A DNA stretch of 64,000 bases from Calothrix anomala FACHB-343 (GTDB lineage: Bacteria; Cyanobacteriota; Cyanobacteriia; Cyanobacteriales; Nostocaceae): NCBI RefSeq assembly GCF_014696435.1, contig NZ_JACJQG010000024.1:1-64000 (forward strand). Direction: 5' to 3'. Numbering within the stretch: the first letter of the stretch is position 1; every line of letters begins with the position of its first letter. The position numbers and the translations under genes are program-made. Shown piece after piece: positions 1,561-57,120 of this stretch. The notes under the pieces were generated by a model. That model was not told the DNA's origin, did not search any database, and worked only from the letters and a program-made list of their open reading frames with translations.

Positions 1561-1726
1561 ACCCATATCGACAAACAGGCGTTGCATCGAATGCCTAAAG
1601 CACTAAACATAACTGGCGATCGCAATTCAATTTTTCGGCGTTGCTGATTAATGGGATGATTTTTATCTCACGCAAAGGCGCAAAGGCGCAAAGAATCGAC
1701 TTTCAGCTTTGTCCAAAAATCTGAAT

Positions 1727-2449
1727 TCATCCCGCCTCCAAAGTTTGTCCATCACGGGTTTGATGCGATACCCGTGAACCACGCCAACCAATATTTCTAA
1801 CTTTCTGTTTCTGCTCTTTGCGCTCAATAATTGGATTAAGAACCCGGTAAACAGTCATGTGGCTGGGGTATCTTTCCAAACCCAATTGTTCGGCTCTCAC
1901 TTGAACCCGAATCGCCACTTGAGCGGGAGTCATTTTTCTACCGCTTTTATTACCTTCTTTATAGGTTTTGATAATAAACTCTTGCCATTGTTTATCGATG
2001 CGGTAATCGCCTTTGTCAGAACGTTCTGGTTCGGTAATAGCCGATAAACCCTGTTCTTGATACTTTTTTACAAGTCGCTGCACCGTCCGAACCGTCTGAC
2101 CCAGCCTTTGTGCCGCTTGCCTGAGTTTGATTCCATAGGTTTTGCGATCGCATGGCTCAATTAAACTTTGTAATACCTCCATCCTCAGCTTGGCTTCATC
2201 CGAGAGTTGAGTAATAATCGTGTTAGTTGGTTCTGCGTACTCATCCTCCAAAATTTCGTCAAGCTCATCCGAACTATCAAAAGATAAAGATGTATTACCC
2301 TCATCGGAGTTTAGCGTTTCACCCATCAGACAACTCCATTGCTTGAAATTCTCTAAATACCTAAAGCTGCTTCTCACACCCTTAACTTCAGTATTGAGAT
2401 GCTGCAAAGCTTCTGCGAAAAAACTCGTCTCCAATTGCTGTTCTTGCAA
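1727..2449 (-). pseudogene. tnsB: Truncated TnsB-like transposase, DNA-binding part only
   Basis: The open frame encodes up to 240 residues. The region from about residue 78 (ITQLSDEAKLRMEVLQSLIE) to the end (GWRGSRVSHQTRDGQ) matches, from memory, the N-terminal helix-turn-helix portion of TnsB from Tn7-like elements of the cyanobacterial type V-K CRISPR-associated group. The frame stops where the DDE catalytic core should begin, so about two thirds of the usual protein (roughly 580-600 residues) is missing. The longest frame starts at TTG (2449). An ATG at 2326 with GGAG upstream, giving MGETLNSDEG, is the likelier start and matches the family's usual N-terminus length. The gene points away from the transposon end at 2895, as in intact elements. 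Confidence 0.8.
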
Positions 2450-2540
2450 CTATAGAGAATGAGGTTTTAGTAGGAGCATGACATAATTAGTATTTGTGTA
2501 TTACTGTTCAATAAATATCATACTACTTTGTTCAAAAAAA

Positions 2541-2895
2541 CGACATTTAATTTTTTATAAACTGAACTTATTCTAGAAAAGGACAATTATTTTGTTATGA
2601 ATTAATCAAAATTTGGAAATCGATGACTTTAACAAAACGACAACTAAAATGTTATTTTTTCAAAAAGCGACATTTAATTTGTTAAAAAAATGAACGGTTA
2701 AATGGCAATCAAAAAGGCTATAATTATTGTGTGCCAAGGATTATAGCCTTTTTAATTTCAGCGACAATAATTTGTTAAGACGACAAATAATTAGTTAACC
2801 GACACCATTCATGCACAAGGTTTTTGGCTATTTTTTCTCCTCAATGCAGAGATGACAATAATTATTTAAATTGGACAATAATAATTTAATGGACA
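2541..2895 (-). mobile_element. Tn7-like transposon end with eight TnsB-site-like repeats
   Basis: The upstream region of the truncated tnsB carries eight copies, all in one orientation, of a 17-18 base repeat of the form nGACAnnTAATTTGTTAA. They begin at about 2541, 2581, 2638, 2668, 2762, 2781, 2852 and 2873. The series ends with GGACA at 2891-2895, which on the minus strand gives a 5' terminus TGTCC. Ordered AAATTA-TGTC repeats behind a TGT terminus next to tnsB are how left ends of Tn7-like/CAST elements look. No matching second end was found near 1500-1727, which fits a decayed element. Confidence 0.78.
2711..2753. terminator. Bidirectional terminator-like hairpin inside the transposon end
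   Basis: A perfect 14-base inverted repeat (2711-2724 and 2740-2753) has AAAAA at one foot and TTTTT at the other, so it could terminate transcription in both directions. It sits between transposase-site repeats 4 and 5 and may insulate tnsB from outside transcription. Confidence 0.55.
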
Positions 2896-2918: not shown

Positions 2919-3866
2919 CTAGCCCCTAGTCCCTAACACCAACTTTTGCAGCCGAGAATTAGGAAAATTTAAACGCCGCGATAATACAGCAGTCAACAAC
3001 ATCCACCAAGCCACAGGCGAACAAATCGCTGGATATACCATCGAGAAAAATACCTTTAGCTGTCTTTGCTGTAAGGCGACAATAGACCAATGTAATACGA
3101 GGTAATTTTTGGTATTCTCTAACTTGGGTATATGCGATATATGCTTTTGATTAACTAACGCATAAATCTTTTCTTTCATCAAAATATTAGTCTCTAAGCG
3201 TTTAAATAAAGACAACTTTTGATTATAAGCACCAGGCCAAATTGTCCGGTAAGCAAGACTTTGATTTAAAAAGATAGCATCGCCAAACTGGGCAATCCGA
3301 ATCCAAGAATCGATATCATCACAGTTAGCATCTAGTTGAGAATCCCAACCACCAGATTGCAAAAATGCATTCCGCGAGCAAGCTACTTGCACTGGCGTCC
3401 CAAAAGGTACCAATTCCAAAAGCATACCGTAATGAATATCAGCTTGAGGAATAGATAAAGCTAACCCCGTACCAAATTTGGGGGTACGGCTGAGTTCCAC
3501 ACCATGACTATCTACCTGAGCCGCAATACAAGAACAGATAACTGCGGTAGGATGGAGTAAAATAGCCTTTGTCATCTCTTCTAGACAATTAGGCGCAAGA
3601 TAATCATCATCATCTAAAAACTTGATCCATTCACCGCTAGCTTTTTCCACGCCAACATTTACCGTCGCTGCATGACCTTGATTTACCCCATTGCGATGGT
3701 AAATCACAGAGTTACCTAAGCTTTTAACATAATTTTCAGTTTCATCAGAGGAACAGTCATCAGCAACCACCACCTCACAAGGAATCGTTTGCTTAAGTGC
3801 TGATGTAATGGCTCGTTTGAGTAAATTTAAACGATTATAAGTAGTTATAACTACAGTAAATTTCAT
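2919..3866 (-). CDS. Family 2 glycosyltransferase
   Basis: A 315-residue GT-A fold glycosyltransferase. The N-terminus has the typical VVITTYNR strand, an ADD motif at 35-37 that contacts the nucleotide, and the metal-binding acidic cluster DDDD at 85-88 (in KFLDDDDYL). Such enzymes transfer a sugar from a nucleotide-sugar to a glycan or lipid acceptor on the cytoplasmic side. The last 70 residues contain a hydrophobic stretch (SPVAWWMLLTAVL) that may associate with the membrane. It stands alone between a transposon remnant and the ribosomal cluster, so its acceptor cannot be guessed. ATG start at 3866. Confidence 0.85.
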   Translation of the reverse strand: MKFTVVITTYNRLNLLKRAITSALKQTIPCEVVVADDCSSDETENYVKSLGNSVIYHRNGVNQGHAATVNVGVEKASGEWIKFLDDDDYLAPNCLEEMTKAILLHPTAVICSCIAAQVDSHGVELSRTPKFGTGLALSIPQADIHYGMLLELVPFGTPVQVACSRNAFLQSGGWDSQLDANCDDIDSWIRIAQFGDAIFLNQSLAYRTIWPGAYNQKLSLFKRLETNILMKEKIYALVNQKHISHIPKLENTKNYLVLHWSIVALQQRQLKVFFSMVYPAICSPVAWWMLLTAVLSRRLNFPNSRLQKLVLGTRG

Positions 3867-4663: not shown

Positions 4664-4736
4664 GCGCTCTTAGTTCAGTTGGTAGAACGCAGGTCTCCAA
4701 AACCTGATGTCGGGGGTTCAAGTCCTCCAGGGCGCG
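4664..4736 (+). tRNA. trnW: tRNA-Trp (CCA anticodon)
   Basis: A 73-base cloverleaf. The acceptor arms GCGCTCT (4664-4670) and AGGGCGC (4729-4735) pair, with one G-U, and G4736 is the discriminator base. The D-loop contains AGTTGG, the anticodon loop reads CTCCAAA with CCA, and the T-arm has GGTTCAAGTCC. No CCA is encoded. Confidence 0.97.
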
Positions 4737-6341: not shown

Positions 6342-7058
6342 ATGGCAAAAAAAATATCACGGCGCTTGCAGGCATTGCAAGCAAAAGTAGAAGATAGAGA
6401 TTACGCACCCTTAGAGGCGCTAGCACTGCTGAAAGAAACAGCAACAGCAAAATTTCCCGAAGCTGCGGAAGCGCATATTCGCTTAGGGATCGATCCAAAG
6501 TATACAGACCAACAATTGCGGACAACTGTAGCACTGCCCAAAGGTACAGGGCAAGAAGTACGTGTGGCAGTAATTGCTAGAGGTGAAAAAGTTAACGAAG
6601 CAAGTACTGCTGGTGCGGATGTCGTTGGTTCAGAAGAGCTGATTGACGAGATCCAAAAAGGCAGAATGGACTTTGACAAGCTGATTGCGACACCAGATGT
6701 CATGCCACAGGTAGCGAAGTTGGGTAAATTGCTCGGGCCGAGAGGCTTGATGCCATCACCCAAAGGTGGTACGGTGACATTTGACGTAGCAAGTGCGATC
6801 GCAGAATTCAAAGCTGGTAAATTAGAATTCCGGGCTGACAGAACAGGCATCGTCCATGTTATGTTTGGTAAGGCATCGTTCTCGCCAGAAGATTTGTTAG
6901 TCAACCTGAAGGCGTTGCAAGAGACGATTGACCGTAACCGCCCTTCAGGTGCCAAAGGTCGTTATTGGCGCACAATTTACGTGTCTTCCACAATGGGGCC
7001 CTCTATTAAAGTCGATATCGGTGCCCTACGGGATTTAAAACTGACCGAAGCAGCATAA
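6342..7058 (+). CDS. rplA: 50S ribosomal protein L1
   Basis: A 238-residue L1. Conserved segments include [17 protein letters not shown], the central [35 protein letters not shown], and the C-terminal [14 protein letters not shown]1 forms the mobile stalk at the E site and often represses its own mRNA. ATG at 6342 follows a purine-rich AGGAGAGAAGA ribosome binding site. Confidence 0.97.
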
Positions 7059-16236: not shown

Positions 16237-17055
16237 ATGAGATTTTTCTCAAAATTACCTTATATTGTGAGAATTTTAGCGATTGCTACAATTGTGGCAT
16301 TTGGTATTATCCTGTGCGGTACTTTAATGATGAGATTTTCTACCTCAAATGTACCCGTGCAAGCTAAAACTTCTCCAACGGTAACAACTACAGTCACAGC
16401 GCAACCCAACTCAGAACCTATAGCTTTACCAACAGCGAATATTCCTACTAATTCCACACCCTTAGAAATTAGTAGAACCTTGCAAATTGAGAAAACCAAA
16501 CATCAAAATACAACAACATCATCAAATCAAATTGCTTACGGGCATTTTCCTTACGCACAAGCCGATCGTAGCCAAATGATGCTGATTGGTAGCTATGCAA
16601 CAGGTGCAGATCAGCGCTTTGAATCTTTAAACACTGAAGCTGTACAAGCATTTATGAAAATGACTTATGCAGCCAGAGAAGTAGGTATTTGGATTATTCC
16701 TGTATCTGGATTTCGGACTATAGAACAACAAGAAAAATTATTTCAAAACCAAATTAAACGCCGGGGTTCTGAACAAGCAGCCGCAAAAATTAGCGCACCC
16801 CCTGGACATAGTGAACATCATACAGGTTTTGCGTTAGATTTAACAGATGGTAAATCTCCAAAAAAAGATATTACTTTAGCATTTGAAAATACAGATGCTT
16901 ATCGTTGGTTGACTAAACATGCTCAAGAATTTGGCTTTGAACTGTCTTTTCCTCCCAACAATAAACAAGGTGTCAGTTTTGAACCTTGGCACTGGCGATA
17001 TGTAGGTTCAGCAAATGCAGCCGCAGTATTTGCTAATGCGAGAAATCAGCAATAA
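16237..17055 (+). CDS. VanY-type D-alanyl-D-alanine carboxypeptidase, membrane-anchored
   Basis: A 272-residue protein with an N-terminal signal anchor (about 8-31, IVRILAIATIVAFGIILCG), a Thr/Pro-rich linker and a C-terminal LAS-family (VanY/DacB) peptidase domain. The zinc site is visible as the GHSEHHTGFALDL motif (first His and Asp as ligands) and the later EPWHWRYVG motif. Such enzymes trim the terminal D-Ala from peptidoglycan stems in the periplasm. It starts 24 bases after the IMS-domain kinase, so the two are probably co-transcribed, hinting at cell-wall-related signalling. Confidence 0.9.
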   Translation: MRFFSKLPYIVRILAIATIVAFGIILCGTLMMRFSTSNVPVQAKTSPTVTTTVTAQPNSEPIALPTANIPTNSTPLEISRTLQIEKTKHQNTTTSSNQIAYGHFPYAQADRSQMMLIGSYATGADQRFESLNTEAVQAFMKMTYAAREVGIWIIPVSGFRTIEQQEKLFQNQIKRRGSEQAAAKISAPPGHSEHHTGFALDLTDGKSPKKDITLAFENTDAYRWLTKHAQEFGFELSFPPNNKQGVSFEPWHWRYVGSANAAAVFANARNQQ

Positions 17056-56403: not shown

Positions 56404-57120
56404 GTGCGCTTTGATATAGTTACGCTTTTTCCTGACTGTTTTACCTCAGTTTTGAGTTCTGGATTGCTGGCTAAAGCCTTAGCCAAACAGATTGCGCAAG
56501 TCAATCTTGTTAATCCTAGAGACTTTACCAATGACAAGCACCGGAAAGTAGATGATGAACCCTATGGCGGCGGTGTGGGGATGCTGATGAAGCCGGAACC
56601 CATTTTCGCTGCTGTAGAGTCGTTGCCGATTCTACCGCAAAGAGAGGTGATTTTGATGAGTCCTCAAGGACAAACTATCAATCAACCACTTTTGCGCGAG
56701 CTGGCAACAAATTATAACCAATTAGTTGTCATTTGTGGCCATTATGAAGGAGTAGATGAGCGAGTACTGCATTTAGTTACCCGTGAAGTCTCTCTAGGCG
56801 ACTTTATTCTCACCGGTGGCGAAATCCCCGCAATGGCTTTGCTTAATGGTGTGGTAAGACTATTACCGGGCACTGTAGCGAAGGTGGAATCATTGACAGC
56901 CGAGAGTTTTGAAGAAGGTTTGTTAGATTATCCCCAATACACCCGTCCTGCCAATTTTCGTGGCTGGAAAGTACCGGATGTCTTACTCTCTGGAAATCAC
57001 GCCGCCATTGCCCAGTGGCGTTACGAACAACAAATCCAAAGAACCAGCGATCGCCGTCCCGATTTACTGGAAAAATGGCAAAGGGAAAAGGAGGACAAGG
57101 GAGACAAGGAGGACAAATAA
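56404..57120 (+). CDS. trmD: tRNA (guanine-37-N1)-methyltransferase
   Basis: A 238-residue SPOUT methyltransferase that modifies G37 of tRNAs and prevents frameshifting. It has FDIVTLFPDCF at the start, DDEPYGGGVGMLMKPEP, the trefoil-knot part CGHYEGVDERVL and SLGDFILTGGEIPAMALLNG, and the DYPQYTRPANFRG segment. Start is GTG at 56404. The last residues (EKEDKGDKEDK) are a low-complexity charged tail. Confidence 0.96.
   Translation: MRFDIVTLFPDCFTSVLSSGLLAKALAKQIAQVNLVNPRDFTNDKHRKVDDEPYGGGVGMLMKPEPIFAAVESLPILPQREVILMSPQGQTINQPLLRELATNYNQLVVICGHYEGVDERVLHLVTREVSLGDFILTGGEIPAMALLNGVVRLLPGTVAKVESLTAESFEEGLLDYPQYTRPANFRGWKVPDVLLSGNHAAIAQWRYEQQIQRTSDRRPDLLEKWQREKEDKGDKEDK

Follow-up and report, generated by a model that had tools for sequence, protein, structure and literature searches.

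The locus and its parts

The stretch of DNA analysed here (the window, 64,000 nucleotides) comprises bases 1-64000 of contig C62 (114,344 bp) of Calothrix anomala FACHB-343, whose 9.24-Mb genome is assembled in 144 contigs. Near the start of the window, next to a host glycosyltransferase gene, are the remains of Tn7-like, CRISPR-associated transposons (CASTs) of the V-K type. An initial annotation, made from the sequence alone, had recognised here a remnant of one such element, consisting of a tnsB-proximal end and the DNA-binding part of TnsB with everything else deleted, and this is borne out by the match to a TnsB structure (PDB 7svw), by PADLOC and by comparison with relatives in other genomes. 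The end proves to be composite, and the parts are as follows (CAST 1 being the element from which the tnsB fragment derives, and T2 a second, divergent one).

1634..1735, plus strand: dispersed intergenic repeat, its last bases missing, fused to tnsB (other copies run beyond the junction)
1727-2449, minus strand: mechanically called open reading frame around the TnsB fragment, starting at an upstream TTG
1736..2326, minus strand: TnsB N-terminal fragment, 197 codons from the conserved ATG (PDB 7svw, PADLOC, closest relatives at 95% and 92%)
2541..2804, minus strand: tnsB-side end of CAST 1, tip at 2804, with six TnsB-type repeats (from the relatives' tips and a repeat matrix)
2781-2798, 2762-2779, 2668-2685, 2638-2655, 2581-2598 and 2541-2558, minus strand: the CAST 1 repeats
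2707..2757, minus strand: terminator-like hairpin within the CAST 1 end (inverted repeat, 23-nt arms, 87% complementary)
2805..2895, minus strand: tnsB-side end of a second, divergent V-K CAST (T2), tip at 2895, cut by CAST 1 in T2's own hairpin
2919..3866, minus strand: flanking host glycosyltransferase gene

Two observations concern the first bases of the window. Positions 1-112 hold a repeat of about 107 bp, plus-type copies of which are 95-100% identical and occur in dozens of places in the same genome among the matches listed, several of these listed copies sitting at contig starts. At 585-1540, a response-regulator gene is followed by pieces of a broken GAF/kinase-like gene, both matching parts of one region of genome G002.

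The transposase fragment

The minus-strand frame at 1727-2449 runs for 240 codons without a stop and contains HTH domains (Pfam). Its residues 75-238 align with the TnsB of ShCAST (PDB 7svw) over 164 residues without a gap (E 8e-53), and the PADLOC model for V-K TnsB matches at E 1.7e-54; the only NCBIfam matches were to IS transposases, all of them below the cut-off. TnsB matches at E 1e-25 or better are present in 104 of the 218 genomes of the family (this one included), the closest to the fragment, apart from itself, being those of Mojavia pulchra JT2-VF2 (genome G096, 95%, in a complete CAST), G007 (92%) and G061 (82%). The start codon common to the relatives is the ATG at 2326, and it is the 197 codons from there that align with their TnsB proteins. 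TnsB of the V-K lineage is thereby represented by its N-terminal third only, and the frame stops, as had been noticed initially, before the DDE core: the break falls ten residues before the Asp of WQCDH (residue 208 in the Mojavia TnsB), which we take to be the first catalytic aspartate.

The end of CAST 1

When the sequences upstream of tnsB were compared among 15 relatives (L011 and L099-L112), motif scans placed the start of their shared end, beginning with TGT, at the base equivalent to window position 2804 in 14 of them, the single exception (L011) having lost the outer end. Ungapped identity of these 14 to the window is 0.87 and 0.86 in the first two 20-base blocks inside this tip, against 0.24-0.37 over five such blocks (100 bp) outside it. 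A repeat matrix made from 60 sites of 13 relatives, with the window left out, gave its six best scores in the whole 64 kb to minus-strand sites at 2541-2798 (26.2, 24.9, 23.4, 20.1, 17.9 and 17.0), the next-best site being at 56714 (16.6). Counting both strands, 11 sites in the window scored above 9, whereas 40 windows simulated under a Markov-1 model had 4.9 on average; the best single score in these averaged 13.6 and reached a maximum of 19.6, so that the two weakest of the six repeats are not individually beyond chance.

The tip common to 14 of the 15 relatives, the drop in identity outside it and the six top-ranked repeats together place the end of CAST 1 at 2804, and not at 2895 as first proposed. 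One end of the element is therefore present, carrying several TnsB repeats and a 5'-TGT tip. The eight repeats originally counted do share one orientation, but they fall into two sets, six belonging to CAST 1 and two to T2. Likewise, the suggested alignment of 2541-2895 with CAST ends succeeds against the relatives over 2541-2804, whereas the remainder (2805-2895) belongs to T2. The name 'left end' also needs to be changed, the tnsB-side end being the right end in V-K usage, at least in the accessible part of PMC9938897. An inverted repeat resembling the hairpin at 2707..2757 is legible by eye in L099 and L101.

As a separate observation on these ends, an inverted tip-like sequence stands exactly 2 bp beyond the tnsB-side tip in four of 16 tips (L101, L105, L106 and L110; control p <=0.0045).

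The outer 91 bp

Positions 2852/2854-2895 match the ends of another Tn7-like element, T2, at 88-93% (BLAST), and 2805-2895 is matched in at least 44 of the 218 family genomes, this one included (a lower bound, because few candidates were scored per genome). In an alignment of 22 of the places listed (L154-L175), 13 copies have the start of a T2 tnsB 170-204 bp inward of the tip; no start at this distance was found in the other nine, two of which (L154 and L170) have T2 genes arranged otherwise. The alignment of the outer 91 bp spans two terminal repeats and then reaches, with weaker identity, a hairpin's left arm. The window's five junction bases precede the right arm of this hairpin in L166 and L174; in the window, the tip of CAST 1 stands there instead. 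The outer 91 bp thus carry tnsB-side end sequence of T2, although T2 TnsB and TnsC queries match nothing within the window except the CAST 1 fragment.

T2 is itself a V-K CAST, as is seen in L013, where pieces of T2 tnsB lie on one strand with a gene for a 658-aa Cas12k (NF038191, E 2e-241), accompanied by an array of CRISPR repeats; Cas12k is absent from the fetched stretches of L012 and L061, despite the presence there of T2 tnsB (two pieces in L061), tnsC and tniQ, so not every T2 copy can be called a CAST. In four of the 22 aligned places (L159, L161, L162 and L172), a T2 tip of the CRISPR-side type faces the tnsB-side tip 5-9 bp away, like tandem T2 insertions.

Nesting and decay

At this locus, then, the end of one V-K CAST interrupts that of another, and a broken tnsB is fused to a truncated repeat. 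We consider it very probable that the T2 end was interrupted by CAST 1 in the same orientation, that near-total deletion of both elements came later, and that the locus is the relic of this nest. In the order of events that we infer, a T2-type V-K CAST would have adjoined the glycosyltransferase gene; a V-K CAST of another clade would have entered the tnsB-side end of T2, 91 bp from its tip, in the hairpin preceding T2 tnsB and in the same orientation; and later deletion and rearrangement would have spared the T2 tip, the tnsB-side end of CAST 1 and tnsB codons 1-197, which would from then on have run into the truncated dispersed repeat.

The final two codons of the frame 1727-2449, and its stop, come from this repeat. 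Four other copies (L039, L040, L042 and L047) extend past the point where the window copy ends and tnsB begins, so the deletion cut into both repeat and tnsB; the break (1735/1736) is 1.7 kb inside the contig and is therefore no contig edge. On the other side, homology with the nearest genome, G001, resumes only at 2917. Beyond the glycosyltransferase gene, G001 has the counterpart of an AcrB-type transporter gene (Pfam ACR_tran) that Calothrix carries on contig C68; a rearrangement took place along with the insertions or after them. The other half of the CAST was not found on this acrB side, CAST proteins matching nothing in the 20 kb fetched. A tRNA-Trp gene at 4664-4736 (found by Rfam, its type taken from ARAGORN on the G001 counterpart) was considered as the att site of the CAST and set aside, because the tRNA of V-K elements sits at the CRISPR-side and not the tnsB-side end, according to the portion of PMC9938897 at hand.

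The initial annotation was right on the genes and CRISPR repeats missing from the window: tblastn with CAST proteins gave no tnsC, tniQ or cas12k, and Rfam at gathering thresholds gave no CRISPR repeat. The CRISPR side of CAST 1 is gone and so is the catalytic domain of its TnsB, which leaves the relic of a member of the family, not a working member. Nor did this genome yield the opposite end of the nested CAST, so a target-site duplication cannot be shown.

Could TnsB from an intact element at another genomic site still serve the solitary end, as the first reading had allowed? The searches lend this no support. Searched with the TnsB fragment, it contains no second tnsB (the same query does detect T2 tnsB in G003 and G005, so T2 tnsB is probably absent as well), and a search run without a positive control genome found no tnsC at E 0.001. 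Cas12k gave two matches, one of them among the matches listed, and the cas12k gene on contig C6 is internally deleted, residues 1 to ~70 being joined in frame to ~380-639; after it come an array of five repeats, a CAST tip and, seven bases beyond the tip, a tRNA-Ala gene. This second relic reads:

L134 (contig C6) 4378-5340, 5845-6175, 6617, 6625-6697: Cas12k with deletion, five CRISPR repeats, CRISPR-side tip, tRNA-Ala

With no catalytic domain, and no partner proteins found in the genome, the relic is most likely inert; since the assembly has 144 contigs, and C62 and C6 both break off towards the interior of the element, missing parts could be hidden in gaps.

These contig ends also invite the thought that the window locus and the CRISPR-side remnant on C6 are halves of a single CAST, split by an assembly break or a chromosomal rearrangement. 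The two contigs hold the genome's only tnsB match and only Cas12k matches, and, in its 5' part and the region upstream, the C6 cas12k shares 91% identity with the Mojavia CAST. Nevertheless, we think this unlikely: the rest of the C6 cas12k and the array region is just 78% identical to the Mojavia sequence, the host flanks of the two remnants are ~242 kb apart in G001, and no 5-bp duplication common to the flanks of both tips could be seen by eye. This last point is weak evidence, as the tips of L107, L109 and L112 share no duplication either (those of L099 share about four bases, again by eye).

The same genome also has an element of ~214 bp with CAST-like inverted tips at both ends (L135:9932-10145, contig C78), found too in G005 (L141:8190-8403) and with a similar left tip in G008 (L140:7411); it is possibly a MITE of V-K CASTs.

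Truncated transposases act as repressors in some other transposon families, and the TnsB fragment might similarly have been kept and domesticated as a DNA-binding repressor that sits on CAST ends and blocks the TnsB of incoming elements. Its frame is open, the cut falls just short of the presumed first catalytic Asp, and the six DNA-contacting residues of ShTnsB named in the available part of PMC9527255 (R58, R66, T78, K84, R99 and R106) are all unchanged in the ungapped 7svw alignment. Both DNA-binding subdomains being retained, the fragment could, to judge from its sequence, bind TnsB repeats if expressed. Moreover, the private changes on its branch show a low nonsynonymous share (10 nonsynonymous and 19 synonymous, the neutral share being 78% nonsynonymous; p 5e-7). 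An open frame and changes so far from neutral imply that the fragment was either cut off only recently or kept, and the data may fit both. However, the ratio of 10:19 does not differ significantly from the 6:6 of two relatives taken together (Fisher p 0.48), and much of the branch may predate the truncation. In G007 and G008 tnsB is broken at other places, the C-terminus of the fragment is an accidental fusion to the repeat, and no partner element to repress was found in the genome. A retained repressor therefore seems improbable to us. It is hardly credible that 2541-2895 is one element end with diverged outer repeats and no nesting, for although both repeat sets end in TGTC and run in the same direction, the end shared by 14 of 15 relatives stops at 2804, and the outer 91 bp align with ends of another element that lead into another tnsB in 13 of 22 cases.

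RNA-guided attack or chance?

How might one CAST have come to lie within another? The relic of nested CASTs described above is not the only such arrangement. In G201 (L162), the tip of a further CAST, whose tnsB is 71% like the one in L066, lies inside T2 tnsB after about codon 32, again in the same orientation. In G011 (L177, 1-18017) three CASTs lie end to end in one orientation, an ShCAST-like element, a broken T2 and a third with its CRISPR-side tip at 16321 (one of the four tips was deduced from the letters of a flank). One may imagine that array spacers against a rival's tnsB steer an incoming V-K CAST into that tnsB region, in matching orientation, and so silence the rival, our locus being the fossil of such a hit. 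We put this forward tentatively, as an unlikely reading, and an ordinary off-target insertion is at least as likely an origin of the nest.

Some evidence comes from 185 distinct array spacers of 49 loci (some overlapping). Five of them match at least 18 letters outside arrays, three of these over only 18-20 letters, and these three were not counted. A spacer of L112 matches codons 343-354 of the tnsB of a Tn7-like element in G006 (L067:4082-4116) in 32 of 35 letters, with GTA before the protospacer; G006 itself gave no Cas12k match. A spacer of L160 (L160:1815-1841) matches T2 tnsB in L163 in 24 of 25 letters (25 of all 27), preceded by GAG and not by GTN, which does precede poorer matches such as that in L159. 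A nest made by guidance would be expected 46-82 bp away from a protospacer with GTN before it (the range given in PMC9938897). With 5550 mononucleotide-shuffled spacers as control, 22 matching letters were attained by five and 26 by the best one, so that the L112 match is beyond the control and the L160 match only suggestive. Judging from the strand, either spacer would be expected to direct insertion in the rival's own orientation. Since the sequences searched were mostly CAST loci, they do not show what fraction of spacers is aimed at CASTs. The arrays at hand gave no spacer against the T2 stretch interrupted in the window, nor do the L112 and L160 spacers explain that nest. The literature, as far as the accessible portions go, also speaks against guided attack. 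An att-site crRNA accounts for nearly all V-K insertions in nature (PMC11406308), and CASTs, once integrated, are said not to adjoin protospacers of their own arrays (PMC11656645).

A relic of this kind is in itself ordinary, its type being already known. What merits follow-up is the nesting and its possible guidance, and the worth of the locus is as the trace of one RNA-guided transposon landing in another, beside the rival's transposase gene. If spacer-guided nests were real, CAST arrays would serve competition between transposons, besides homing and spread to plasmids and phages.

Comparison with known systems

Other mobile elements have been described as nested within Tn7-like elements (PMC8649781, from the part available). 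We found no report of a V-K CAST nested in a V-K CAST in the literature within reach, which was largely open-access, excluded bioRxiv and was in part available only as excerpts (PMC10293859 included), so that absence of such a report is unproven.

The nearest complete element is that of Mojavia pulchra JT2-VF2 (contig C29 of G096; L099), with tips at 16258 (minus) and 1985 (plus), a TnsB of 599 aa, TnsC, TniQ and a Cas12k of 639 aa (NF038191, E 7e-272). Its cargo comprises an N6-methylase (HsdM type) and a TPR protein (Pfam), and it has six CRISPR repeats and a tRNA-Val gene six bases outside the CRISPR-side tip. CAST 1 resembles it in the architecture of the tnsB-side end and in the N-terminus of TnsB (95%), but the Mojavia gene set is complete while the window locus is a remnant, and no T2 end sequence occurs in the 30 bases beyond the Mojavia tnsB-side tip. 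Among the 14 relatives L099-L112, Cas12k was detected by tblastn within the fetched stretch (some stretches being short) in five: L099, L104, L107, L109 and L112. Decay within this clade has also taken other forms. In G007 there is a stop within tnsB, and in G008 (L136:16910-19873) the end, tnsC and tniQ are kept and residues 1-333 of TnsB are unmatched, so to speak a complementary relic of the CAST 1 clade.

With ShCAST, from Scytonema hofmannii, the fragment shares N-terminal DNA-binding domains that align without gaps along the 164 residues compared; ShCAST is, on the partial evidence of PMC11406308, complete and functional, whereas the window keeps the DNA-binding part only. Finally, clade T2 (L013, L062 and L177) has a tnsB-side end equivalent to the outer 91 bp of the locus, but its Cas12k is only ~40% identical to that of the Mojavia CAST, and of T2 itself the window keeps just these 91 bp, cut by CAST 1.
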